64,000 nucleotides of DNA from Balneolales bacterium ANBcel1. GTDB taxonomy: Bacteria > Bacteroidota > Rhodothermia > Balneolales > Natronogracilivirgulaceae. Position numbers and translations under genes: made by a program. The DNA is taken from NCBI GenBank assembly GCA_029688905.1, contig JARULB010000006.1:62001-126000 (forward strand), given 5' to 3'. The notes beneath the pieces were generated by a model. It saw only the letters and a program-made list of their open reading frames with translations, did not search any database and had not been told where the DNA came from. Of the stretch, positions 22,684 through 58,354 are shown piece after piece. Position 1 is the first letter of the stretch. Each line of letters starts with the position of its first letter.

Positions 22684-25600
22684 TTACTTAACAAGCATCA
22701 TCTTCTTCACTTCACTGAAACTGCCTGCCTGAATTCTGTACAGGTAGATTCCGCTTGAGAGTGAAGAGGCATCGAAAGTCACCGTATGGCGACCGGCTTC
22801 GTAGTTGCCCTGTACCAGTGTAGCCACTCGCTGTCCCTGAATGGTGAAGACATCGATGGAAACATTTGCCGGCTCAGGAAGGCTGAACTGGATATTGGTA
22901 GCAGGGTTGAACGGATTCGGATAGTTTTGAGACAGCGCAAACTCATCCGGGATTTCGGCGATCTCATCAGCATCGGTCGGTTCCACAATATGAACCTCGA
23001 CATGATCCACATGAATGATCGCACCGTCGTTCTTCTCCATATTCAGAGCCACGGCATAGCGCAATCCGTGCTCTTCATCATCAGCGTTGGCGGTATGGCG
23101 ATAGGTATACTGCGTCCACTCGTCATACAAGTCAACTTCAACACCTGGATGGCCTGGATAACGGGCCCAGTCGCCGCTTTGAGGCAGACCGAGGTAGAGG
23201 TTTGCTCCGCGCTCGTTGTTATCGGCCTTAATCCATATCGACACTTCGAGCTCATCGCCTTCCAGCACATGGAACGGCTCGTTTACCAGTTCGACTTCCC
23301 AGTCGTTGGTCGTTCCGTTCCAGACACCGAAGTCAACCTTCAATGCATGGTCACCATGGTAGACTTCATCCGTAACGATTTCAAAGGTTGCGTCACCCGG
23401 ATTTAGGGTCCAGGCCACGACATCACCCGGTCCGACTTCGCCGGGCTCGGCTCGCTCGAAACTTCCGTTGTAGTTGATCAAATCGCCTACTGCATGTGGC
23501 GTTTCGGGTATCGGAGGCATGACGGTCAGCACGCCTGACACGTTCTCTTCACCGTCCCAGAATCCATCCTGGAATCCTCCGTAAACGGTTTCGCCACCGG
23601 CAAGCTGGAAAGAGCTCACGTAGTAGTAGGTACCCGGCTCCAGGTCGGAACCGATATCCAGCATGTACTCATGGCCTTCATGCTCGAAATCCGCATTGAA
23701 TTCGGCATCCAGCCAGGTCCATCCGTCTTCTGTCGGGGCAACATTTTCGGTATTCAGACCAATTTTGGCTACCATGTCATCCGACTCTTCGGGATCATCG
23801 GTGAATCCGGGGGCGTGTACCTGGGCATAGACCATGAACTCTTCGCCTTCTCTGATTTCACCGTCAGCGGGCCACTGGAGATTGGCGAATGTAATTTCAG
23901 CGCCAACAGGGTAACGGAGGTAACCGTCGATAGTGACGATTTCCGCGCCATCCATCAGGTTCAGGTCGAATTCGTTGTTAAACTCGCCCCGTACCAGACG
24001 CAGTGTTTCAAGGATAGTGATATCCCGTGACTGATCGACGCCGGCTTCGTTGTCGATAACCAGGGTTTGCACTGCAAGCGGCAGTGTGAAGCTGGACTGC
24101 TGCCGCTCGGTTCCGTTGAAGACATAGGTTGCGTTGCGGGGTATTTCGGTTCTGGCATCGGTCTGGATGTTGGCATCAAACCCTTCCGGATGGGAGGTCG
24201 CCAGGGTTCCACCTTCATGGAGGATAAACAGATCATTGCCATCAATTTCACTGTATCCCATATCCAGGTATGCCCCTTCGAGAACCTCAATCGGGAGGTT
24301 GTCGATATCAACTTCATCGGCAACGGTCAGATACTGAACCGTATCCTGTCCGGCAAAGACGAAGTTGGATCCGCTTCTGGGGTTGGAGTTTTGGGTTCCA
24401 CCGCCCAGCATGGTCAGGCTGCCCTCATACAGATACCAGCGGGTGGTACCGTCGCCGCTCTGGGATCCGCGGGTAACCGAGAAGTTTGTTGCATTTTCCC
24501 CTACATAGATGCTGCCGTAATGGTGCACTTCGTAGGTGGTCTGAGCATTGCCGGATCCATGACTCGTAAAGGTACCGGCATCCACGAATACATCGCCGAG
24601 AATAGTGAAGATGGCCTCGCCCTGGAACGGTGCCCCTGTGAGAGACCACCGGTTGTTGGCGGTGTTCTTTACATGGATATCACCGGAAATCGTCACATCA
24701 TTCAGCTCCAGATTACCGCGGTTTGCCATATTCGGGGTATCAAGAACGATGTTGTGATAATTCTGATTGGTGTTGGATGCGTTTTGTTCGATCATGCCGG
24801 TAAACATGATGGTTGAGCCATCCAGCCACTCGGCATTCGGAACGGTGCCGCCGTTTCGGGCGTGGTCATAGACACCATGGTTGCCGACGATCATCTGGCC
24901 GGAACCATCTGTCCGTATCTCACCGTAGTTGATAATTTTGCGCTCGGTGTAGAACTCGTTCCCGTCGGCGACTTCAACGATGGCAGAATCCGGAACTATG
25001 AGATTTACCATACCGGTGAATGAGGTCTCTCTGCTGATATGTACGCTTTGAGCAACCTGTCCGGTGGTATCGGCAACAAACGTGATATTACCGAGGTCAT
25101 CGTTATGGGAATCCTGCAAAGTACCGCCGTCAACCCAGAGATCGCCATTCAGATGGACGGATACGTGTCCGCCACTGCCACGGCTCGGAGCGAAATTGGC
25201 GCCTTCATGGACGATCAGATCACCTCCGATATTGAGGAAATAGGTCTGGGCTCCGCCGGATCCGGTCATCGTTGCCTGTCCGCCTTCGACGATCAGACTT
25301 CCTTCGATATTGACCGTCACATCGGAATCGGCGCGACCGGCCCAGGTCATGTGGAAGCGACCGCTACCGGTGTTGACAACACGGACATCACCGCGGATGG
25401 TGTTTTGTTCCGCTCCCCAACCCACATCAATGTTCTGAGCCTGGTTCGGGTTGTCCCAAACGAAGTTGTAGAAACTGCGGTTGGCGCCGGAGGGATCATC
25501 AGCTACCAGTCCGGTGAACTTAATGGTGGATCCGTCGTTCCAGTTAGCCGGGGGTACCGGAGGTCCTTCCTGACGGGCATAGACATAGTAGCCGCCGTCA

Positions 25601-27399
25601 TTGATGTCGAGGGTACCATCCAGTTCGACAATTCCGTCTTCGGCTTTAATAAAGGCGCCGTTGACTTCAACATGACTGCCTTCGGCGATAAGGAACTCGT
25701 CCTCAAACATGAAATCGGTGTCAGCGGTAACAACTACATGCGCATCTTCTGCTACCGTATAGTTGATGGCACCGGTATAAGAGACATCGGCACCAACGGC
25801 AATCGTTTGAGTCGAGGAACCGCCGAATACGAATCCGCCTTCATCGTCATTATTGGAGTTTTGCAGTGTCGCACCATCATCCACGATGAAATCGCCATGG
25901 AGTGTCCAGGTTCCAAAACCGCCACCGCCACGGCTGGGCGAGAGGTTGGCACCGTCATGGACGTGAACATCACCCATAACGACAACATTGTAAACGGCTG
26001 CGCCACCTGATCCGGTTGTTGCCAGCTGGCCGCCTTCCACAATAACATCACCTTCGATTGTCGTGGTGGTTCCGTCGCCATCGCCTGCATCATGGAAATG
26101 AACACGTGCCGAACCGCTGTCAATGATTCTCATGGTTCCGCCAATAGTGGCATCACCCCATCCGATATTGATATTTTGGGCCTGACCCGTGCTGTTCCAG
26201 GTGAAGTTGTAATATTCCTGGGCGCGGTTACCGGGGCCGTGTCCGACATAGCCGGTGACAAGCATCGTCGATCCTTCATTCCAGTTGGCGACCGGGATCG
26301 ATCCACCGTCGCGGGCGTGCTCGTAGGTACCGCCGTCGTTGATGTCCAGAACTCCTTCAAGTGCAATTACGGCGTCTTCTGCGCCTATCAGCGATCCGTC
26401 TACATCAACATGACCGCCTTCGGCGATAAGGAGCTCGTCCTCAAACCGGAACTCGGTATCGGCCGCGATCAAAACATGCGCGGTTTCAGCTACAGTAAAG
26501 TTGATGGTTCCCGTGTAGGAGACATCGGCACCGACTGCTGCCGTCTGTAGTTCATCACCGGCAAATACAAACCGGGCCATATCGTCGTTGTGGGAGTCCT
26601 GCAGGGTAGCACCATTTTCCACGATGAAATCGCCGTACAGATCCCATGTGGCGAATCCGCCGCCACCGCGGCTCGGGGCCAGATTGGCTCCGCTGTGCAC
26701 ATGAACATCGCCCATCACCTCTACATGATAGGTGGCTGCACCGCCGGAACCGGTGGTGGTAACCTGACCTCCTTCAACGATCACATCACCCATAATGGTA
26801 ATGGTGTTTTCGTCACCGCTGCCGGCATCGGTAAAGTGGAAACGAGCCGACCCGGTACTGAGAACGTGGATCGAGCCGCTGATAGTAACTTCTTCCCATC
26901 CGAAATTCAGGTTCTGCACCTGCTCGGGGTTGTTGTACACAATATTGTAAAATTCCTGTGAACGGTTGCCGGGGCCGTTGCCTACATAACCGGAGAGGAT
27001 AAACGTCGATCCTTCATTCCAATTGGCGACAGGGATGGATCCGCCGTCGCGGGCGTGCTCATAGGTACCTCCGTCGAAATCGAGCGTGATACCATCGGCT
27101 ATGCCAAGGCTGCCACCTTCACCGACCTCTTCGCCTTCAACCGTAATGGAGCCGGTTACGGCCAGATCGGCATCCAGCACAATATCGTGTCCGTCCAGAA
27201 TAGTGATGGTGGCTTCGCCTCCGGGCACCTCAGTAGCGGCACTCCAGTCGGTGCCGTCAAAGGTTTCCCAGACCGCCACATCGCTCCAGTCCCCCGATCC
27301 TGCGGAGCGGAAATCACCCGCATCCTGAGCCAGCGCGTTTCCCGCCGAGAAAAACAGAAACAGGGTTAATGTTAAGATTTTTGTCACAGTGATTTTCAT
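22684..27399 (-). CDS. Giant surface repeat protein with CBM-like module and T9SS tail
   Basis: A 1,571-residue secreted protein. A signal peptide (1-24) and a short module lead into four beta-rich repeats at about residues 110-355, 356-601, 602-840 and 841-1065. Each begins with a G-x-Y-x-x-A-R-x-x-G motif ([11 protein letters not shown]) and contains GDVIVEGGQ and ANLAPSRG-type turns, suggesting a beta-solenoid. Residues about 1300-1480 resemble a CBM4/9-like beta-sandwich ([19 protein letters not shown]). The tail [14 protein letters not shown] to MMLVK is a T9SS sorting domain. The start has GGAG seven bases upstream. It is probably an adhesin or glycan-binding scaffold; no catalytic motif was recognised. 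Confidence 0.82.
24205..27072 (-). repeat. Four tandem repeats inside the giant gene
   Basis: Units at 26335-27072, 25597-26334, 24880-25596 and 24205-24879. The first two are exactly 738 bp (246 codons) and still alike at DNA level, for example in the block encoding the [19 protein letters not shown] region. The third and fourth are shorter and more diverged, implying successive duplications with the newest at the N-terminal side. Confidence 0.85.
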
Positions 27400-27671: not shown

Positions 27672-28652
27672 TCAATGCTGCGATTTTCTGATGGCAAGAT
27701 TGTGGAAATCGCCGGCGTCGATGGTGATAAAACCTTTACCTTCGGGAAGATCGCGAATCTGTCCGGCCCTGCTTCGCTCCCATCCCCAGGCAATAAGTGA
27801 GGAGTCGGCGCGAATGGCCAGGCTGTGGGTGTATCCGACCGAAATTTCACGGTAACCGCCGTCTGTGGGGGTATCGCTTACTTCGTTGCGGCTGTCCCAG
27901 CCCCAGGCAACCATGGTGCCGTCTTCCCGCAGGGCCAGGCTGTGCCGGCCGCCGGCGGATATGGCTACAAATCCTCCTTCTTCCGGAGTATCGTTTACCG
28001 AGCCCAGCATGTCGTTGCCCCAGGCCACCACCGTTCCGTCTTCGCGCAGCGCCAGGTTGTGATTCTCGCCTGCCGAAATAGCGATGAAATCGTTGCCACG
28101 GGGGGTGTCGGTAACCTGACGGTTCAGGTTCCAGCCCCAGGCGACAATATAACCCTCCCGATGCAGGGCCAGGCTGTGGGTCCCGGCGGCTGATATCTGT
28201 ATGTGCCCTTCACGCCGGGGAATTCTGCCCGCCACAATGGATCGGTCGTCTGTGATATGGGGATCCCATCCCCACTGTATCACGGTTCCGTCTTCGCGCA
28301 GCGCTACGTTGTGGTTATGTCCGGCCGCAATGGCGATGAAGTCGTCCTCTCCGGGCGTATCCCGAACTTGCTGGTCGGTATCGCGACCCCAGGCAGCCAG
28401 GGAGCCGTCGCTGCGCAGGGCCAGACTGTGGCGAAAACCGGCGGCAACGGCTACGAAGTCATCGCCCCCGGGCAGGTCACTTACCTGGCCGTTGGTATCA
28501 TCGCCCCATGCAACAAGATATCCGGTGTCCAGGCCGGCAAGCGGATCCCCCGTCCGGACACCGGACGCGAAAAATGCCAGGTAAATCAGTATAATTAGAA
28601 TGGCCAGTGCGACTGCGACAGGGAGCAACCGGCGTAGATTGAGTTTCATCAT
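27672..28652 (-). CDS. RCC1-repeat (beta-propeller) protein with N-terminal membrane anchor
   Basis: A 326-residue protein. A single hydrophobic segment (about residues 9-29) anchors or exports it. The rest is six to seven RCC1-type repeats of about 43 residues, each carrying a variant of HSLALREDGTVVAWGWD with an intervening AISAG. These form a beta-propeller of the RCC1/BLIP-II type. Binding is likely but no ligand can be named; no enzymatic motif is present. It sits between the giant repeat protein and the PL1 lyase on the same strand, so it probably acts outside the cytoplasm. No T9SS tail. Confidence 0.87.
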   Translation of the reverse strand: MMKLNLRRLLPVAVALAILIILIYLAFFASGVRTGDPLAGLDTGYLVAWGDDTNGQVSDLPGGDDFVAVAAGFRHSLALRSDGSLAAWGRDTDQQVRDTPGEDDFIAIAAGHNHNVALREDGTVIQWGWDPHITDDRSIVAGRIPRREGHIQISAAGTHSLALHREGYIVAWGWNLNRQVTDTPRGNDFIAISAGENHNLALREDGTVVAWGNDMLGSVNDTPEEGGFVAISAGGRHSLALREDGTMVAWGWDSRNEVSDTPTDGGYREISVGYTHSLAIRADSSLIAWGWERSRAGQIRDLPEGKGFITIDAGDFHNLAIRKSQH

Positions 28653-31830: not shown

Positions 31831-34161
31831 TTACTTGACCAGCATCATGGTCTGTGTTTGGGTACGCTGACCCGCCTGAAGCCGGTAAATATAGGTTCCG
31901 CTTGCCAGGTTGGTCGCATCGAACGTGACCAGGTGCGATCCTGCCTCACGGTGTTCGTTCACAATCGTGGCGACCCGCTGTCCGATCACGTTATAGACAA
32001 CCAGCGATACGTGAGCCGCTTCGGGCACTTCATACCGGATATTGGTTGCAGGGTTGAACGGGTTCGGATAGTTGTTGTGCAGATGGAAGCGGTAGGCCTG
32101 TTCCGTCGGATTCGCACTGGTAGGCGGGCTCTCAGGGCAGCCGTCCGGGAAACGCACACTGTGGTACGATACCGGATAGGTTGTTGCCGCAGTAGCCTGC
32201 ATGCCATCCAGCCAGTTTTGGTAGGAAGCGTCATCAGGGCCACACAGACCGGTGCCGTCGTATTTCATCACCCGCATGAAGCTGGCATTGGTAAACGCCA
32301 TGGGTATTTCGCCGGTCAGCCCTTCGTTGCCTGAAAGCACCAGTGCCTCAAGCAGGTGCAACCCTTCGGCGATATGTCCAGCCTCGGCAAGGACTTCCGG
32401 TATTTCACCGGTGAGCTGGTTATACGCCAGATTCAGGGAATCAAGCTGCTGGATATTCCCCCATGATGCGGGGATGGACCCGGTAAAATTATTCTCGTCA
32501 AGGGCGATGGTTGAGAGCGTAAGCGCCAGGTCACCCTGACCAAAATACTCAGGAAGCTCGCCGCTGATACCCAGTCCTGCCAGGCCGATATTCTGAAGAT
32601 TCCGGAAGTTGGTGATCCACTGCGGAATTTCATCTACCTGCAAGCCGGTCCGCGAAAGATTGAGCACGGTCAGGCTCTTGTTGCCCAACCAGGTGGGGAG
32701 CTCGCCGGTCAGGTCGGGATTGTCCCTGAGGTTCAGCACCGACAGGTTCAGGTTATTGAGATTATTCGGGATGCTGCCTGTCAGGCCCACACCGGCAAGC
32801 TGAAGGTTTTCAATATTTCCCATCATGGCGCCGATGAAATTGGGGATCGGCCCGATGGTCATATTGGGACAGTCGATGATTCTGAAATCCTCGAGTCCAT
32901 CGGCCAGCTGAAACTGATCGGGGATGGTGCCTTCAATATTCAGGCTCTGGAGCCAGATGCGTGTGATATTGTCCGGCATGGCGAGATTCGCGGGGATATT
33001 GCCTGTCAGGTCCAGGTTGAACAGTTCAATATCCTCAAGAGTAGGAGCGGTACCCATCCATTCAAATGCGCTAAAGTCACCTGACCACTGTCCGCCGTGA
33101 ATACGGATTCTGCGCAGACTCGGCATATCGGAGAGGTCGGGGATATCGAAAAAGGTTTCGCCCGCGCCGATTTCGTCTTCAATTCCTCCAACGACAAACT
33201 GTTCGAGGTTCTCCATCATAGGCATCCATGAGGGGAAGGAACCGGTTCGGTTGGTGTTCTGGATCATGAAACGAACGAGGGTTTCGCTCCAGGCATCACC
33301 GATCCAGTCGGGGACGGGACCTGGATCCAGATTATTATTACCGATACGATAGTACTCCATCTCATCGATATGCGACCAGTCGGGAATGGGGCCGGTCAGC
33401 TGAAGATCATGGAGATAGACCTGGTTCAGCGACTGCATACTTTCGTCCACCTGGGGAATCTGACCCTTGATCAGGTTGGCATCCAGGAAAATTCTCCGCA
33501 GCACGGGCCATTCGCCATTGGCTCCAAGGACTGCCGGCATCTCGCCGGTCAGGTAGTTTTGCCGGACGCGGAACTCTTCCATTGTGGGCATCACGGCAAA
33601 ATCCTCCCAGGGGACGGCGCCGGTCAGGATATTGGTTCGGATGAGCAGTTCTTCAAGGCGCGCCATTCGCGCGATCTCCGGAGGAATGGGTCCGCTGTGC
33701 AGATTCACATCCGATTTCCAGAACCATACGTACTCCAGGTCCTCCATTTCGGGCGGAAACGGACCGGGCACACGCATGTTGTTTCGGGGCATATCAACGG
33801 ATGTGACCCGCCATTCGCCGTCGGCTACTTCTTCGATTTCATCGATGCCAATCCAGAACGCGACCTGATCCACAAGCCATCCGGAGTTGTCGCGCCACTG
33901 GTCACCGTTTGTGGAGTTGTAATAGGCCACCAGCGCCAGAGAGTCCTTTTCATGGACTGATGCACCGGTTTGCTGAAACTCGGCAATATTCAGTTGTTTT
34001 CCACTCAGACTGATAATTCTTGCCTGCCCATCCGCCCTGTCGGCCATGGAGAGGGAGAACAGAAATATCAGAGGCAGGCAAGCGGCCATCCATCGAAAGC
34101 AGAATGCTCCCCGGAATGTATGCTGCCCTGAACGTTTCCGTTTGTTTGTATTTGTGTTCAT
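31831..34161 (-). CDS. Leucine-rich repeat surface protein (plant-type LRR) with T9SS tail
   Basis: A 776-residue secreted protein. The ATG at 34161 is preceded by AAGGAG and begins a basic signal peptide (MNTNTNKRKRSG...). After an N-terminal cap with the plant-type LRR signature (LALVAYYNSTNGDQWRDNSGW), about 18 repeats follow with the consensus L-x-x-L-x-L-x-x-N-x-L-T-G-x-I-P, for example LNLAYNQLTGEIPEVL. The C-terminal T9SS domain has [15 protein letters not shown] and ends MMLVK. The family mediates binding; the ligand is unknown. It lies downstream of the first TonB receptor on the same strand. Confidence 0.9.
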   Translation of the reverse strand: MNTNTNKRKRSGQHTFRGAFCFRWMAACLPLIFLFSLSMADRADGQARIISLSGKQLNIAEFQQTGASVHEKDSLALVAYYNSTNGDQWRDNSGWLVDQVAFWIGIDEIEEVADGEWRVTSVDMPRNNMRVPGPFPPEMEDLEYVWFWKSDVNLHSGPIPPEIARMARLEELLIRTNILTGAVPWEDFAVMPTMEEFRVRQNYLTGEMPAVLGANGEWPVLRRIFLDANLIKGQIPQVDESMQSLNQVYLHDLQLTGPIPDWSHIDEMEYYRIGNNNLDPGPVPDWIGDAWSETLVRFMIQNTNRTGSFPSWMPMMENLEQFVVGGIEDEIGAGETFFDIPDLSDMPSLRRIRIHGGQWSGDFSAFEWMGTAPTLEDIELFNLDLTGNIPANLAMPDNITRIWLQSLNIEGTIPDQFQLADGLEDFRIIDCPNMTIGPIPNFIGAMMGNIENLQLAGVGLTGSIPNNLNNLNLSVLNLRDNPDLTGELPTWLGNKSLTVLNLSRTGLQVDEIPQWITNFRNLQNIGLAGLGISGELPEYFGQGDLALTLSTIALDENNFTGSIPASWGNIQQLDSLNLAYNQLTGEIPEVLAEAGHIAEGLHLLEALVLSGNEGLTGEIPMAFTNASFMRVMKYDGTGLCGPDDASYQNWLDGMQATAATTYPVSYHSVRFPDGCPESPPTSANPTEQAYRFHLHNNYPNPFNPATNIRYEVPEAAHVSLVVYNVIGQRVATIVNEHREAGSHLVTFDATNLASGTYIYRLQAGQRTQTQTMMLVK

Positions 34162-34342
34162 AACGGCTCCTTTTGTTTTAGTGATTCCGGCCCAACTGCA
34201 AGCAGCTTTCATCAGGCCGGGCAGGTTAATTGTTTTTTTATAAAAGTTTCTGCCAGTGTCACATTGAAAATTGCGGAGTCACTTTTTGGATAATGCCCAT
34301 TTGGTAATCGCCGCATTGGCTGTATCCTGTTTCAGCATAAGA

Positions 34343-51985: not shown

Positions 51986-53035
51986 TCAGCCGGTTTCGAT
52001 GCCCTGTCGTGTCTTCCATTCAAGTGGAAAATCATTTCCGCTCACCAGGAATTCGGTCTCCATAATATCCAGCCGGTTTTCCGCCTGTACTTCGCCGGCA
52101 ATTTCGCGTATCAGCATATCGGCCGCCCTTTCACCCATCGTTTCCGCCGGCTGGTGGATGTAGTATTGCGGAAACGGCACGATGTTCCGTATTCCGCTGT
52201 CGCCGAATGCAAGCATTTTCAACCGGTCAATAATGGTCGGATCCAGCTCGCGCATTGCAATATAGGCTCCGAGGGCTACAGGAAAGGTCACCGAAAACAA
52301 TCCGTCGATGTCCCCCCCTCGCTCATACAACTCCTTGAATCCCTTGTAACCGGCTTCTTCTCCAAAGCCCCCCTGGGTAATGAATTCGGGGTTTACTGTC
52401 AGTCCATGATCTACCAGCGCTTTCTCATAACCCATCCTCCGGTTTCGGCCGATGGAGATGTGATCGTACCCCGACAGGTGCGCAATTTTTCTGCAGCCGT
52501 ATTCGATCAACTTGCTGACCCCCAGCCTGGCAGCATTCATATCATCGATAATGACGCTGTTGAATCCCAGGTCCGGAATGTGGCGGTCAAAAAACACAAG
52601 CGGGATCTGCATGTCACGAAGCCATTCATACACTTCTAGGTTCCTGGTATCCATGGAGACCGATACCAGCAGCCCGTCCACCTGCATGGACATCAACGCT
52701 TCGATATGCTTTCTTTCCAGCTCTTCATTTTCATCCGATACCGTCAGAACGATCTCGTACTCGTGGGATGCCGCCGATTTCTGAATTCCGGCAACCACAT
52801 GAGCGAAAAAGTTGTGCGCGATTTTGGGAACCACCACGCCGAGTGTGCGGCTTCTGGAAGAAGTCAGCGACCGGGCAATCAGATTGGGCCTGTATCCGAT
52901 CTGCTCGGCGACCTTTTTGACTTTCTTCTTGGTTGCCTCGGAAATATCCGGATGATTTCTGAGGGCTTTGGACACACTTACCTTGGTCAGGCCAAGAATC
53001 TTGGCAATATCGTTGAGCGTCGCTTTCTTTTTCAT
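51986..53035 (-). CDS. LacI family transcriptional regulator
   Basis: A 349-residue repressor-type regulator. The ATG at 53035 puts the helix-turn-helix at residues 5-24 (TLNDIAKILGLTKVSVSKAL) followed by the hinge helix region (NLIARSLTSS). The periplasmic-binding-protein-like sensor domain spans about 60-340 (RTLGVVVPKIAHNFF, FDRHIPDLGFNSVIIDD, GCRKIAHLSGYDHISIG). Its effector is probably a sugar or uronate intermediate. It is transcribed divergently from the GH28 gene. The recurrent dyad KTAAyCGGTTAC, with the central CpG typical of LacI operators, lies in this divergent region and at seven other places in the island, so it is the natural candidate to bind it. Confidence 0.92.
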   Translation of the reverse strand: MKKKATLNDIAKILGLTKVSVSKALRNHPDISEATKKKVKKVAEQIGYRPNLIARSLTSSRSRTLGVVVPKIAHNFFAHVVAGIQKSAASHEYEIVLTVSDENEELERKHIEALMSMQVDGLLVSVSMDTRNLEVYEWLRDMQIPLVFFDRHIPDLGFNSVIIDDMNAARLGVSKLIEYGCRKIAHLSGYDHISIGRNRRMGYEKALVDHGLTVNPEFITQGGFGEEAGYKGFKELYERGGDIDGLFSVTFPVALGAYIAMRELDPTIIDRLKMLAFGDSGIRNIVPFPQYYIHQPAETMGERAADMLIREIAGEVQAENRLDIMETEFLVSGNDFPLEWKTRQGIETG

Positions 53036-53408
53036 GAATCGAAACGTATGGTGGCGGGATGTGCCGTACCGGTAACCTTTTCGCGGCTGCACATGATCGA
53101 GAAACAGTTCTATGGCAAAGATACCATCTGCCATATCCGCAATGAAAAGCGTTCCAAAAACAGGCACTGTACACAGAGTAAACGGTTAATTAACAAAAAA
53201 TACGCTACAGTTCCAATGCATTTTTTTGGGATGTCACGATTAAACAGTACGTTAAACTCACCGGCTCCTGTAACGAAAATCCCCCTTGCAGCCGTCATAG
53301 AAGCTACAATCATCTCACGGACCGGCGCGCGGTCATCCTTCCTGTAGTGATACATTCTGCCCGCCCGTCATCCACCCAATCCGTTCACCCAAAAACAGCT
53401 TCAAGCAA
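53036..53408. other. Divergent regulatory region between lacI and GH28
   Basis: 373 bp without a convincing ORF. It holds operator site 5 at 53178-53189 and an A/T-rich stretch around 53190-53240 that could hold promoters for both directions. A minus-strand frame at 53110-53355 is not coding in character. Confidence 0.6.
53178..53189. promoter_or_regulatory. Candidate LacI-type operator, site 5
   Basis: GTAAACGGTTAA, 143 bp upstream of lacI and 220 bp upstream of GH28. With its right flank it reads GTAAACGGTTAATTAAC, nearly the same as site 7. It may serve autoregulation. Confidence 0.55.
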
Positions 53409-55028
53409 ATGAGTCATATTCCAGAAATTCGTACATCCGCGACACAACGTCCCATTGGGGGAATCTCTCTTTTTCTGATGGTGTTGTTGCTTCTCACCAA
53501 CTGCACGGCAATGGAGGCTACGGCTCAGTCAGAGCAGGTTCCCCATGAAATCGCGCCGATAACCGCTCCCTTCCCGATGCCGCAGCTGGAACGCCCGGCC
53601 ATCCCCGACCGGGTTTTCGACATCCGGGATTTCGGCGCACAACAGCGGCATGAAAGCGAAGACGAGCTCATCACCGACGCTATCCATGATGCGATTGAAA
53701 CGGCGCATCGTTCGGGCGGAGGCACGGTATTGATTCCGGAAGGATCGTGGCTGACCGGCCCCATCCACCTGATGAGCAACATCAACCTGCATGTAGAGGA
53801 GGGCGCGACCGTCTATTTCAGTGAAAACAGGGAAGATTACCTGCCGGTAGTCCGCCAGCGCCATGAAGGGGTGGAAGCGTACAACTACTCTCCGCTCATC
53901 TATGCCTACAAAGTGAAGAACGTGGCCGTAACAGGCAAAGGAGTATTTGACGGTCAGGGACAGCAGTGGTGGGATTGGTACCGTGAATATGGTCCCCCGC
54001 CCCGGGCCATCGCCACCAAAGTGCCGCTCAGCCGGCGCGATTTCGGCAAGGGCTCCGGCATGGAGGGCATGAGGCCCAATTTCCTGGTATTCTGGGAGTC
54101 GGAGAACATCCTGGTGGAAGGGGTCACGTTCAACGACGGACCGATGTGGAACGTCCAGCTGATTTACAGCAAAAACGCCATCGTGCGGGACGTGACCGTC
54201 AACAGCCTTAATGCCCCCAATGGCGACGGACTGGTGATCGACTCATCCAGCGAGGTGCTTATTGAGTACAATCACTTTGAGACCGGTGACGATGCCGTGG
54301 TGATCAAATCGGGACTCAATGAGGAGGGCCTTGAAATCAACATCCCTACGGAAAACGTTGTTGTCCGGAACTTTACCGCCCGTGATGTCAGGACCGGCAG
54401 CGGCGGTGTGGTATTCGGCAGCGAGACCTCCGGCGGCATCCGGAACATCTATGTGCATGATGCCGTGTTCGAAGGCAGTGACCGCGGTATCCGGTTCAAA
54501 ACCGAGCGCGGCCGCGGAAATGTGACCGAAAATATCTATGTGCGTGATGTTCGCATGAAAAACATCACCTACGAAGCGATCAACTTCAATACGTTCTATA
54601 CCGGCCCGGATGTTATCGGACCCGCCCCCGCTATTCGCAACATCGACATTCGAAACGTGGAAATCGACGGGGTCCCCAACGCCATTGTACTCATCGGTCT
54701 GCCCGAACTCTGGCTCGAAAACATCACCCTGGAAAACATATCTGTGGTTAACGCAGAGCGCGGGGCACAGCTTACACGCGTAAAAAACCTGGCGATTAAA
54801 AATGTGGATATCCGGTCCAGTGACCGTGCGATGACCGCCGAGGATGTCTACGAATTCTCCATCGAAAACCTGCGCCTTACGGATGATACCGGCCAGGCTC
54901 CGCTTCTGTTCCGGGGCCGCCATACAGGCGCCGTGTTCTACGGAAATTTCCCGACCGACCAGGTCCGATTCGAGGATGGCCTGACCGATGATATCCTCAA
55001 GGAACATATGGACCCGCAAGCCTGGTAG
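53409..55028 (+). CDS. GH28 family polygalacturonase
   Basis: A 539-residue secreted beta-helix glycosidase. N-terminal hydrophobic signal ISLFLMVLLLLTNC could be a lipoprotein signal. The pectinase-like start FDIRDFGAQ (about 73-81) and the GH28 catalytic motifs follow: NGDG near 272 and TGDDAVVIKSG near 293 carrying the catalytic aspartates, GSETSGGIRN, and RFKTERGRG replacing the usual RIK(T). It probably hydrolyses homogalacturonan, exo-acting by resemblance. Four bases separate its stop from the next start, so it is co-transcribed with the HEAT-PL1 gene. Confidence 0.92.
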   Translation: MSHIPEIRTSATQRPIGGISLFLMVLLLLTNCTAMEATAQSEQVPHEIAPITAPFPMPQLERPAIPDRVFDIRDFGAQQRHESEDELITDAIHDAIETAHRSGGGTVLIPEGSWLTGPIHLMSNINLHVEEGATVYFSENREDYLPVVRQRHEGVEAYNYSPLIYAYKVKNVAVTGKGVFDGQGQQWWDWYREYGPPPRAIATKVPLSRRDFGKGSGMEGMRPNFLVFWESENILVEGVTFNDGPMWNVQLIYSKNAIVRDVTVNSLNAPNGDGLVIDSSSEVLIEYNHFETGDDAVVIKSGLNEEGLEINIPTENVVVRNFTARDVRTGSGGVVFGSETSGGIRNIYVHDAVFEGSDRGIRFKTERGRGNVTENIYVRDVRMKNITYEAINFNTFYTGPDVIGPAPAIRNIDIRNVEIDGVPNAIVLIGLPELWLENITLENISVVNAERGAQLTRVKNLAIKNVDIRSSDRAMTAEDVYEFSIENLRLTDDTGQAPLLFRGRHTGAVFYGNFPTDQVRFEDGLTDDILKEHMDPQAW

Positions 55029-55031
55029 TAT

Positions 55032-57299
55032 ATGTATGCCAATTATTTACCTTTCTGGATCGTGGCCGTCCTGCTTGTCGGGACGTGCCATGCCTCCGGA
55101 ACCTCGCTTTCAGACACACCATCCGGCCTGGAGCATCGCCTGGCCGGTTCTTCGCCGCCACACCCGGAACTGAGCGAATCCGTTCTTTCCCGGTTGCTGG
55201 ATGTGCTCCATGTCCCTGATCAGCCGATGCATGAACGCGAAGCAGCCGCCCGAATTCTGGATCATACCAGTGTGAATCAGGCCCGTTCTCTTCCGCCGGA
55301 TTCTCTGATCGATTTCCTGGACCGGCTCCATCTTGTTCCCGCGGATCTGCGATGGTACACCGGACGACTCCTGGTGTATGCCTCAGCCGCACACACTCCC
55401 GTCTACGAACACCTGATGACCCTCTCCGCCGGTCATCCAGAGCCCGATGTGCGATACTTTGCGGCAAGGATCCTAACCGCAGCCGGCCCTCATCCGGAAG
55501 ATCACGATATCTCATTCCGGCACTTTATGGACCTCCATGCGGCGGATGCAGACGCTTCCGTGCGTGAGGCAGCTCTGAGATACATCGAAACGTGCGCATA
55601 CACGGACAAACGGGCAGTGGACCTGTTTGTACGCCTGCTTCGCAATACCGACCCATCCCGACGGTTTCTTGCGGCAAGAGCTTTGGAAAAGTCCGGGGAA
55701 TACGCAGGTGACGCACTTCCCCATTTGCTCGACCTGTTGAGCGCTGAAGACGGATACCCCGCGATACGGGCGCAGGCATGGCGGGCATTACGCAGTGTTG
55801 GCGGCGACGATCCCCGGATTGCCGGTCCGCAGGCCCCACGCTCTTCTGGTTCGGGTGATATGGTTCCCGGACTGGAACAGCGGCTGGATGCCGGGTTCAG
55901 AAGTAGCGCCGAGTCTGACCGGTTCACTTTTCCGGATTCGTTTTCCAAAGGGGAGGCGCTGTTCTCGACAAGAGGCTGGAGAGGCGGTGAGATGCAAATC
56001 CCGGCTTTTCCCGGAGCACAGGGATTTGGCAAATGGACTCCGGGCGGCCGCGGTGGCGAGGTCTACCATGTTACCAGTCTGGGCGACGACGGACCGGGCA
56101 CCCTGCGTGACGCGGTCTCCGAAAGCCATCGGATCATCGTATTTGATGTCTCGGGTATCATTGAGCTCGAGGAGCAACTCGATATCGAGCAACCGTTTAT
56201 CACTATCGCCGGACAGACCGCCCCCGGCCGTGGCATCACCGTGTCCGGGAGCCGGACACAAATCAGTGCCAATGACATCATTCTGAGGCATCTGCGATTT
56301 CGTCCGGGGGATGAATCCGGGCAACGTGACAAAGCCATCAATGTAACTACTGCCGACAACATCATCATTGATCATCTTTCCACCAGCTGGGCCAAGGAAG
56401 AGACCATGTCGGTGGTACACAGCGGTCGTGTCACCATCCAGAACAGCCTGATTACCCATGGCCTGGTGGATGCCGGTCATTACAAAGGCGACCGGGGGTA
56501 CGGCTCGCTTATCCGTGGAGCAGGTCCGGGCAACCGTGATTACGCCCAGGGATCGAATTACAGCTTCATCAATAATCTGTGGGCCCATCAGAGATCGCGC
56601 GCACCGCGACCCGGCAACTATCTGGATCATCAGACCGATCCGGTCGGACCCGTTTTCGATTTCCGCAACAATGTCTTCTACAACTGGGGCGGCAACCGAT
56701 CCGGAGATAATTTTGATGACCACAGTATCAGTCGCTACAACTTTATCGGCAATTACTACAAACCCGGTCCGGACAGCGACGGCCACTACGCGTTTTACGA
56801 GGAGTCCCCGTATGCAATGGCTTACTGGCGGGATAACGCGATGGCGGGTGCCGTGCCCGATGACCAGTCGCAGCTTATTCTCGGCCTGGAGGAAATTCCG
56901 GGCGATTATCTGCAACCTCAGCCGTTCCATGCCGGGGATTACGGGATCACCCTGAGTGCCCGGGAAAGCTACTACCGTGTTTTGGAAAGGTCAGGCGCCC
57001 ATCCTCGTGACCACTACGACCGGAACGTGATTGAGGAGGTTCGAACCGGCGGAGGCACCCTGATCGACAGCCATACCGAGACCGTTGGTTTCCCGCATCA
57101 TGGCCGTGCCCTTCCACCCGTGGATACCGGAGGAAACAGCATGCCCGACTGGTGGTTGATTCGTCATGGTATCCATCCGGAAACAACACTGAATCCTGAT
57201 GGCGACTTCAACCGGAGCGGATACACCAATATTGAAGAGTACCTCAACGGAACAAGCCTGGATCTGTTCTATCAGGCCGGGAGTCCCGCAAAGAAGTGA
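55032..57299 (+). CDS. PL1 family pectate lyase fused to an N-terminal HEAT-like region
   Basis: A 755-residue exported protein. After a signal peptide (MYANYLPFWIVAVLLVGTCHASG), residues about 35-265 form helical HEAT-like repeats (VRYFAARILTAAG, VREAALRYIETCA, RRFLAARALEKSG, IRAQAWRALRSVG). A PL1-type beta-helix spans about 322-655: FPGAQGFGKWTPGGRGG, IVFDVSGIIELE, ITIAGQTAPGRGIT, NIIIDHLSTSWAKEE, RAPRPGNYLDHQTDP. A tail with MPDWWLIRHGI and GYTNIEEYLNGT follows, with no T9SS domain. It lies in an operon four bases after GH28. It should cleave pectate or oligogalacturonide; the repeats may bind substrate or a partner. Confidence 0.88.
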   Translation: MYANYLPFWIVAVLLVGTCHASGTSLSDTPSGLEHRLAGSSPPHPELSESVLSRLLDVLHVPDQPMHEREAAARILDHTSVNQARSLPPDSLIDFLDRLHLVPADLRWYTGRLLVYASAAHTPVYEHLMTLSAGHPEPDVRYFAARILTAAGPHPEDHDISFRHFMDLHAADADASVREAALRYIETCAYTDKRAVDLFVRLLRNTDPSRRFLAARALEKSGEYAGDALPHLLDLLSAEDGYPAIRAQAWRALRSVGGDDPRIAGPQAPRSSGSGDMVPGLEQRLDAGFRSSAESDRFTFPDSFSKGEALFSTRGWRGGEMQIPAFPGAQGFGKWTPGGRGGEVYHVTSLGDDGPGTLRDAVSESHRIIVFDVSGIIELEEQLDIEQPFITIAGQTAPGRGITVSGSRTQISANDIILRHLRFRPGDESGQRDKAINVTTADNIIIDHLSTSWAKEETMSVVHSGRVTIQNSLITHGLVDAGHYKGDRGYGSLIRGAGPGNRDYAQGSNYSFINNLWAHQRSRAPRPGNYLDHQTDPVGPVFDFRNNVFYNWGGNRSGDNFDDHSISRYNFIGNYYKPGPDSDGHYAFYEESPYAMAYWRDNAMAGAVPDDQSQLILGLEEIPGDYLQPQPFHAGDYGITLSARESYYRVLERSGAHPRDHYDRNVIEEVRTGGGTLIDSHTETVGFPHHGRALPPVDTGGNSMPDWWLIRHGIHPETTLNPDGDFNRSGYTNIEEYLNGTSLDLFYQAGSPAKK

Positions 57300-57386
57300 T
57301 TACCGGTTCCCCTTTGTTCGGTGCATACTATTAGATTCCCCATGTGAACAGCCGACGGTGGAATATCTGTCGCTCCATCCTGCCGG

Positions 57387-57599
57387 TCACTCTTTGCGAT
57401 TGTCTGCCTTTTGTGTTAACCGGTCGGGGTTTGTTGAACCATACAGATGCCGGAAAAGCCGATTTTTGGCCTTTCCCGGTTCTGTGACCGGGACATGACC
57501 CTTTAGCCGACGCATGAATTCCGAGTTCTGCTTTAGAGCTTCGGCAAACGTCTCCAGGTGTTCATCACTATCAGACAAAAAAGTATCTCCTGCTGTCAT
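57387..57599 (-). CDS. Doubtful small ORF (70 aa)
   Basis: A 70-codon frame starting MTAGDTFLSDSDEHLETFAEALKQ. The composition is hydrophilic and helical at the start, with no membrane segment and no family I recognise. Only a weak CCAGG precedes the ATG. Operator site 6 lies about 142 bp upstream, which would fit a regulated small gene, but the frame may equally be chance. Listed for completeness. Confidence 0.25.
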   Translation of the reverse strand: MTAGDTFLSDSDEHLETFAEALKQNSEFMRRLKGHVPVTEPGKAKNRLFRHLYGSTNPDRLTQKADNRKE

Positions 57600-57740
57600 G
57601 CCTGGTTTAATGCATAAATGTTTTCTTTATGCACTGACGCAGGCAGAGCCCCATACTCGTGACATGCAAAGTGAAGATTTATGCAAATTTTCCCGATAAC
57701 CGGAGTTTTTTGTTCAACTCGGGGAAAAATGCACACCGGC

Positions 57741-57752
57741 TTTACCGGTTAC
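57741..57752. promoter_or_regulatory. Candidate LacI-type operator, site 6
   Basis: TTTACCGGTTAC, followed by TTCTAAAG as at site 4. It lies 18 bp beyond the sigma factor stop, in the converging gap, so its target is unclear. Confidence 0.45.
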
Positions 57753-57769
57753 TTCTAAAGTCAAAAAAT

Positions 57770-58354
57770 TCAGTCAGCTCTCATGGCTTCCATATGGCAG
57801 ACAAAGTGCTTCAAACGGGCGCGAAGTGTCTTCAATGCACGCCTGATTTGCGTATCTACGGTATTGACAGATATGCCAAGTGTTGCGCTTATCTCCTTGT
57901 AGGAAAGTCCGTGCAACAAACGCAGCACCAGGATTTCCCGCCGGCGTTCCGGAAGTGCAGAAATAGCTTGTTGTATGGAGTTGGAGGCGTCCTGCCCGTG
58001 CAACTGTTCCATTGGAGACGGAATGCGATCCGGGATATTTGCTTCGGAATCCTCTTTGAGCGGAGTCTCAAAGCGCTTTTTTCGATAGTCGTTGATAACC
58101 TGGTGGTAGACCGATCGGTACAGATAAGCTCGCACAGCAACCCTGGGCTCCCAGCGATACCGGTTTTCCCATATTCTGACGAACACTTCCTGCACAACGT
58201 CTTCCATCACCTCCTCCTGCTTCACATAACTGTAGGCATATTCGCACAGAGGTGTGTAGTAGGTCTCAAATAAATCGGAGAAAGCCGCCTTGTTATCATT
58301 CCTGATCTGTTCGGCCCAATTCATGTCACGGTCGTTAATCCACTTACATTCCAT
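57770..58354 (-). CDS. ECF RNA polymerase sigma factor
   Basis: A 194-residue sigma-70 family ECF factor. Region 2 (about residues 24-90) carries LFETYYTPLCEYAYSYV and VVQEVFVRIWENR; region 4 (about 130-180) carries LPERRREILVLRLLHGLSYKEISATLGISVNTVDTQIRRAL. It resembles the large Bacteroidota family of ECF sigmas linked to polysaccharide loci. No FecR-type anti-sigma gene is adjacent, and none of the three TonB receptors has the STN signalling domain, so it is probably not controlled by a receptor. Two candidate operators lie upstream of its start. Confidence 0.92.
   Translation of the reverse strand: MECKWINDRDMNWAEQIRNDNKAAFSDLFETYYTPLCEYAYSYVKQEEVMEDVVQEVFVRIWENRYRWEPRVAVRAYLYRSVYHQVINDYRKKRFETPLKEDSEANIPDRIPSPMEQLHGQDASNSIQQAISALPERRREILVLRLLHGLSYKEISATLGISVNTVDTQIRRALKTLRARLKHFVCHMEAMRAD

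Follow-up and report, generated by a model that had tools for sequence, protein, structure and literature searches.

The window, a 64,000-nucleotide stretch of the genome of Balneolales bacterium ANBcel1, encodes a 755-residue protein in which a solenoid of HEAT repeats precedes a pectate lyase of family PL1 (positions 55032-57299, + strand), as indicated by its translation, by Pfam, NCBIfam and PDB matches and by AlphaFold2. HEAT folds are known mainly for protein-protein contacts, and the explanation that we tentatively favor is that the solenoid is an enzyme-specific protein-docking or positioning module on an exported PL1, which cooperates with a GH28 enzyme encoded upstream. The lyase would be exported, probably to the periplasm, and would act with the GH28 enzyme on galacturonan fragments. 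The HEAT solenoid, which would not itself bind pectin, would hold the lyase beside a particular (putative) envelope partner or, as a rigid arm, pack against the lyase to which it is fused.

Domain layout and predicted structure

The protein begins with a probable signal peptide at residues ~1-21 (55032-55094, + strand), recognized as a hydrophobic stretch in the translation; no lysine or arginine was read ahead of this stretch. The HEAT-repeat solenoid occupies residues ~46-262 (55167-55817, + strand), comprises 6-7 repeats and was identified by Pfam, AlphaFold2, Foldseek and VIA. Both HEAT_2 (E 1.8e-10, 41.4 bits against a gathering cut-off of 27.7) and HEAT (E 2.6e-7, 30.7 bits against 23.5) exceeded their gathering scores, so the region is not a chance helix, and several tandem two-helix repeats above the Pfam cut-off were found when Pfam and AlphaFold2 were considered together. 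The initial annotation had described about 230 residues of HEAT-like repeats; the repeats are real by Pfam, but their length is ~217 residues. The three motifs quoted there (AARILTAAG, EAALRYIE, and AARALEKSG) were all found, at about residues 144-222. A linker of ~57 residues (residues ~263-319; 55818-55988, + strand) follows, and then the PL1 beta-helix with its D-rich C-terminal tail at residues 323-740 (55998-57251, + strand), which was delimited by PDB and NCBIfam matches, AlphaFold2, Foldseek and motif alignment.

AlphaFold2 run on the single sequence gave a confident fold in the HEAT part only (pLDDT block means of 72-91 over residues 51-250). With a 48-row alignment, the whole chain reached a mean pLDDT of 86.3 and a pTM of 0.86, with helices at residues 49-256, a low-confidence linker (pLDDT mostly <50) and a beta-helix from about residue 321. 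Thus, the structure prediction that had been proposed as a check modeled both the helical-repeat fold and the PL1 beta-helix, and sequence, AlphaFold2 and Foldseek agree on the full beta-helix annotated after the repeats. Foldseek matched the lyase part to 9buj (4.9e-24) and Bacillus subtilis Pel (1.2e-8), and the HEAT part resembled helical solenoids (alphaReps, importin-alpha, and PP2A-A). With the single-sequence model, VIA matched CLASP TOG, alphaRep and armadillo chains with Z-scores of 11.6-14.2 among the 50 matches listed, values that are common for helical repeats. Recognition of the HEAT fold by both sequence and structure, and its resemblance to alphaRep binders, importin-alpha and PP2A-A, are consistent with a docking or positioning role. 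The pTM is higher than expected from the lyase alone (~430 of 755 residues), which hints that the HEAT arm in the model is held firmly against the lyase. Such placement would suit a positioning module, and it would also suit an alternative that we regard as doubtful though conceivable, namely that the HEAT part only stabilizes or spaces the lyase, as a folding aid, a cap or a means of size-based retention, and has no partner.

A T9SS sorting domain (Por_Secre_tail) was not matched on the window protein at E<=1 in Pfam, in agreement with the annotation that no T9SS tail is present; the same library did detect the tail on L002 and L003, two PL1 paralogues encoded in the window genome, which served as a positive control. 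Because a signal-like stretch is present and the T9SS tail is absent, the protein is probably periplasmic; that the location is deduced from a missing tail weighs against the docking reading. The tail of the window lyase is D-rich; TSP3_bac was matched in 20 of the 77 relatives scanned with Pfam.

The lyase part is assigned to PL1 by sequence kinship and by its right-handed beta-helix. Its best solved relative was 9buj (E 6.3e-49; profile E 1.3e-101). The NCBIfam model PelZ was matched with an E-value of 1.2e-37, but the score of 129.8 bits lies far under the equivalog cut-off of 840, so the lyase is PelZ-like only and not PelZ. Counting against the assignment, Pectate_lyase_4 gave no Pfam match on the window protein at E<=1, and with a limit of E<=0.001 it was also missing from 64 of the 77 relatives. 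In a 31-row alignment, D447, H448 and R523 were invariant and P525 was nearly so. D447-H448 and R523 align with the IDH and RMPR of 3zsc, which places both the D-H and the R-x-P-R motif in the window lyase. We take R523, the Arg of R-x-P-R, to be the catalytic base, in agreement with the title of 2bsp (an R279K mutant), and presumably the lyase uses Ca2+. The net charge of the lyase part is -19. In one HEAT-PL1 relative (P0004; L033:5737-7788), the R-x-P-R motif has Lys instead of its conserved Arg, and Cys after the Pro; to judge from these residues, that lyase is perhaps inactive.

Gene neighborhood

Directly upstream of the HEAT-PL1 gene lies a gene for a GH28 polygalacturonase-like protein (53409-55028, + strand; Pfam GH28 8.6e-29). 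The GH28 stop codon (55026-55028) and the HEAT-PL1 start (55032) share a reading frame and are separated by three bases; the annotation had the neighbor right and the distance, given as four bases, wrong. A read-through fusion of the two frames, which have one TAG between them, was considered and rejected because a signal-like hydrophobic stretch, recognized by eye, follows the HEAT-PL1 start. A LacI-family regulator (51986-53167, - strand) is divergent from the pair. The window also encodes a T9SS-tailed PL1 and PL9-like protein, a GH43, three TonB-dependent receptors, the uronate genes UxaC and UxuA, and a PfkB kinase, and is a pectin-use region. A promoter scan of positions 53100-57800 found no promoter, a result that carries little information.

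Three further proteins of the region were noted. An RCC1-repeat protein (27672-28652) has homologues near GH28 in two related neighborhoods (L335 and L336), and a T9SS-tailed LRR protein (31831-34212) has one in L335. A 1571-residue protein (22684-27399) carries a T9SS tail and had no further Pfam match at 1e-5.

Distribution of HEAT repeats on pectin enzymes

Among the 146 relatives searched, 19 (own genome included) contained matches to the protein, and the HEAT part was reached only in the genome of the window itself. A single match spanning HEAT and PL1 was found in one of 244 genomes of the class, again the window genome, with at most three candidates scored per genome; at this depth, as with the two candidates scored in the phylum search, second copies could be missed. 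The genus mate (G001), whose genome is 76% complete, had no match to HEAT-PL1, and the searches turned up no close orthologue of the window gene. A GTDB-wide search seeded with exact peptides was evaluated for the best 80 of 220 relatives; HEAT was found in three (L031, L032, and L033), all Bacillota, and the other 77 loci had none at E<=0.001 in Pfam with one ORF per locus. Long N-terminal parts in five relatives (L018, L082, L062, L063, and L073) were considered as HEAT regions and gave no HEAT match. When 398 genomes sampled from the Bacillota phylum were searched and two candidates were scored in each, no HEAT-PL1 appeared beyond the genomes already found. HEAT is therefore uncommon on polysaccharide lyases, as the initial annotation had it, in the genomes searched outside one Bacillota class, but within that class it recurs: the domain-architecture search that returned one class genome in 244 and three of the best 80 of 220 loci GTDB-wide also led to 13 genes there.

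These 13 HEAT-PL1 genes occurred in six of the 72 genomes of the class that were searched (three each in G244 and G273, two each in G271, G274 and G275, and one in G246), and one more was found in G245, a member of the Bacillota from another class. The HEAT part is supported by Pfam in seven of the loci (L031, L032, L033, L180, L185, L199, and L184) and is weak, under the Pfam cut-off, in L198. HEAT ahead of PL1 was recognized by phmmer alone in L181, L182, L183 and L196; in L195 and L197 the best Pfam HEAT stretch lies after PL1 and the N-terminal HEAT rests on phmmer. In two PL1 proteins (L193 and L194, from G290 and G297), an N-terminal part of ~470 residues was rejected as HEAT, as it had no Pfam match and appeared beta-rich by eye; it stands where relatives have HEAT.

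The HEAT repeats were not confined to PL1. They preceded the lyase in 14 of the 16 PL11 proteins scanned (13 in G271, G273, G274 and G275 and one in G245; absent from L225 and L248), a count that leaves out three loci with stops or fragments (L247, L249, and L250). Four of the eight CE8 proteins scanned also carried HEAT (L191, L195, L197, and L261, but not L255, L267, L272, or L273), as did a GH16 protein (L190) and a beta-helix protein (L189). HEAT, PL1, HEAT and CE8 (pectinesterase) follow one another within ~1600 residues in L195-L197, and one contig of G273 encodes HEAT-PL1 (L185) and HEAT-CE8 (L261) in two separate frames. Recurrence on PL1, PL11, CE8, GH16 and beta-helix proteins argues for a docking or positioning role; a plain spacer need not recur specifically as HEAT on PL1, PL11, CE8 and GH16. 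Moreover, four of the Bacillota genomes with HEAT-PL1 also encode PL1s without HEAT (L215-L218), so such a lyase is not always in need of a stabilizing HEAT part. The related genomes of the window's class appear to manage without the module, which counts against the docking role.

The distribution bears on a further explanation, a functionless accidental fusion retained by chance in one lineage. The single HEAT-PL1 genome in the class and the lack of a match in the incomplete genus mate would suit it, but no fewer than three PL1 clades contain HEAT, other pectinases carry it too, and the window gene has an open frame and a good predicted fold; we find this explanation barely credible.

Several HEAT-bearing pectinases occur per genome, and in G273 three HEAT-PL11 genes are arranged in tandem. 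These features would fit a shared assembly tag by which HEAT, in the manner of a dockerin, attaches many pectinases to one scaffold, as would a HEAT-only protein encoded directly behind one HEAT-PL1 gene (L184). However, the HEAT sequences cluster by catalytic partner with no common type, an unsystematic look revealed no scaffold protein, and of the four proteins of the window genome that matched HEAT_2, only HEAT-PL1 was recognizable as a carbohydrate enzyme (the other three were judged by eye). A shared tag is thus very improbable. The tandem genes, for rhamnogalacturonan lyases, lie on one strand of contig C77 (L302:3815-12029) with gaps of about 10 and 60 bases, as measured from mechanical ORF starts. 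The HEAT-only protein (L184:2596-3795) has 400 residues, and its HEAT part is akin to that of a set B lyase. Two of the HEAT_2-matching proteins of the window genome (L221:929-3304 and L223:229-2583) are exported-looking, have helical repeats towards the C-terminus and are peptidase-like by eye.

Omp85 was detected in the window genome and in each of the seven Bacillota genomes that carry HEAT-PL1. It was matched in seven of 14 control genomes and not in B. subtilis; we take the seven positive controls all to have an outer membrane or envelope. Since Omp85 occurs in both, the HEAT-PL1 Bacillota and the window lineage probably have an outer membrane, as far as gene content can tell, and this is consistent with docking to an envelope partner.

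A GH28 related to that of the window was present in two of the eight Bacillota HEAT-PL1 neighborhoods (L294-L301), so that GH28 adjoins or lies near HEAT-PL1 in both lineages. In G273, GH28 is directly upstream of HEAT-PL1, and the surrounding stretch also holds a DUF5696 gene and two transport permeases, one of which scores under the cut-off; in G244, a frame of 221 residues lies between the upstream GH28 and HEAT-PL1. The order of GH28 before HEAT-PL1 in the window and in these two neighborhoods, with permeases upstream in the one scanned, favors a docking or positioning role and fits the idea that some Bacillota HEAT-PL1s would work on fragments near an importer. On the other side, GH28 was not seen in six of the eight neighborhoods, and G245, which has a DUF5696 gene, and G246 had no GH28 match at all.

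Charge, conservation and evolution of the HEAT part

Sequence change is much faster in the HEAT part than in the catalytic part. Identities in set A were 26-48% for HEAT and 61-76% for the lyase; the corresponding values were 41-67% and 74-91% in set B and 33-62% and 76-88% in set C. The number of repeats also varies, from ~210 residues of HEAT in P0004 to ~510 in P0002, and the PL1 parts of these two proteins are 76% identical. Across 14 HEAT-PL11 proteins, the 248 full columns of the HEAT part included 14 that were invariant, compared with 208 of 539 catalytic columns, and these 14 columns, of which one is polar and none aromatic, are nearly all structural. The rapid change (33-67% against 74-91% in sets B and C), the varying repeat number and the structural nature of the invariant positions all favor an arm that only stabilizes or spaces the lyase; the last also fits a plain spacer, and a repeat number that differs so much between lyases 76% identical is odd for a fixed dock. 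In the three HEAT-PL1 sets (three to five rows each), 29-40% of the invariant HEAT columns were polar, and in these proteins the HEAT part may have a binding or partner surface, if the small alignments are a guide.

The net charge of the HEAT part was -9 in the window protein, and in 14 relatives it ranged from -10 to -34, so all 15 are acidic; local basic patches may be present. This bears on the proposal that HEAT is a substrate-presenting platform whose groove binds pectin and feeds the lyase. Alpha-solenoid grooves can bind polymers, and HEAT recurs on families that act on pectin. However, pectate is a polyanion, so net acidic HEAT parts disfavor substrate presentation. The invariant positions of the HEAT-PL11 proteins, nearly all structural, indicate no conserved sugar site there, and HEAT also occurs on a GH16 protein. 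We therefore consider a substrate platform unlikely. The HEAT parts (15 segments) grouped by catalytic partner and not by genome, which favors an enzyme-specific docking or positioning module. Taken together, acidic charge, fast evolution and partner-wise clustering speak against both a pectin groove and a single common dock. Where the initial annotation had offered a docking or substrate-presenting platform, docking to a putative partner is thus the half that survives, and substrate presentation is disfavored.

Origin of the HEAT-PL1 joining

A tree of 42 rows placed the window lyase in a group of 14 (support 99/96) that also holds the nearest HEAT-PL1s from Bacillota, HEAT-less PL1s from Bacillota and the T9SS-tailed PL1s from the same family as the window lyase; within this group, the lyase joined its own family with moderate support (88/93). 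Two further HEAT-PL1 groups were placed elsewhere in the tree. Forcing the window lyase to join the HEAT group cost 10.64 log units (p-AU 0.0525). In a 129-row tree, the HEAT label required three changes against a shuffled mean of 6.1, a comparison confined to 22 labeled rows with 107 left out; as drawn, this tree has HEAT in three Bacillota PL1 groups and in the window protein, with unlabeled rows between them. Support near the window row was moderate and the window branch was long. Because the HEAT groups are interspersed with unlabeled rows, several joinings are likely, and a single origin of HEAT-PL1 is not favored with HEAT in at least three separate PL1 clades. HEAT was probably joined to PL1 more than once, independent joinings being likelier than one on this phylogenetic evidence.

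The window HEAT part is no closer to those of the Bacillota HEAT-PL1s than to other HEAT proteins, and this generic kinship weighs against the docking role. Its long linker has no counterpart of equal length in the three Bacillota relatives aligned, in which the linkers are much shorter.

Orthologues of the window GH28 were 79% identical in G003 and 66-67% identical in four genomes of the order, and in none of these five neighborhoods (L333-L337) did HEAT-PL1 lie beside GH28. In G053, a PL1 without HEAT lies near the GH28 orthologue on the opposite strand. The GC3 of the HEAT-PL1 gene (0.615) is within the range of the window genes measured (0.585-0.726). Horizontal import of the GH28/HEAT-PL1 pair from Bacillota was considered and is not supported because the window GH28 looks native, its orthologues have no adjoining HEAT-PL1 and GC3 is ordinary. 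With the p-AU at 0.0525, an old transfer of HEAT-PL1 alone may have occurred.

Comparison with known systems

HEAT solenoids have mostly been studied as intracellular protein scaffolds. Among the papers listed from an open-access collection, none dealt with HEAT-bearing pectin enzymes; subscription journals are mostly absent from that collection, which makes this weak evidence of novelty. In PMC3071791, PMC3091767, PMC5915685 and PMC10947273, where both terms occur, HEAT refers to proteins other than pectin enzymes.

The site of action and the target of a carbohydrate enzyme are determined by its accessory modules. Within one bacterial group, HEAT was found on four or five carbohydrate-enzyme families, mostly pectin families, and it was met a single time in an unrelated lineage that has T9SS; the HEAT arm on pectinases is probably a useful accessory part. 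The question that follows can be tested directly: does the arm bind a partner protein, the substrate, or nothing but the enzyme that carries it? A broader proposal, which we judge unlikely, is that diderms of distant phyla repeatedly equipped pectinases with exported HEAT solenoids, each fixing the enzyme to its own envelope partner, such as an outer-membrane or ABC import complex. If true, the HEAT solenoid would join carbohydrate-binding modules, dockerins and T9SS tails as a further class of accessory part.

The window lyase has the beta-helix fold in common with PfPL1 of Pseudoalteromonas fuliginea (9buj) and B. subtilis Pel (1bn8 and 2bsp), and 9buj is also a sequence match, in which the DH and R-x-P-R motifs line up. 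However, PL1s of the 9buj type match the window protein over the lyase only, and among the 26 solved sequences listed, the HEAT part was matched by solenoid proteins and not by lyases. AlphaRep, armadillo, importin-alpha and PP2A-A share the helical repeat fold but are not carbohydrate enzymes, and the fold alone shows no function. The T9SS-tailed paralogues of the same genome have a related lyase (the 88/93 grouping) but carry the tail and no HEAT, and the window protein lacks the C-terminal sorting domain of T9SS cargo. It also differs from a dockerin-like shared module, of which one common type per genome would be expected, since HEAT types follow the catalytic partner in the 15 segments compared. 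The acidity of HEAT and, in the PL11 set, the single polar and absent aromatic conserved sites speak against a carbohydrate-binding module, as far as sequence goes.

The Bacillota HEAT-PL1s (L031, L032, L033 and 11 more genes) resemble the window protein in that an N-terminal HEAT part is followed by a PL1 of the same group; the lyases of the nearest three are 47-49% identical to that of the window. They differ in that HEAT is mostly longer and of different sequence and the linker is shorter (in the three aligned), and a sister relation was not supported (AU p 0.0525). The Bacillota HEAT-PL11, HEAT-CE8, PL1-HEAT-CE8 and HEAT-GH16 proteins, mostly of pectin families, likewise place HEAT before a catalytic part, but they belong to other catalytic families and have their own HEAT types.
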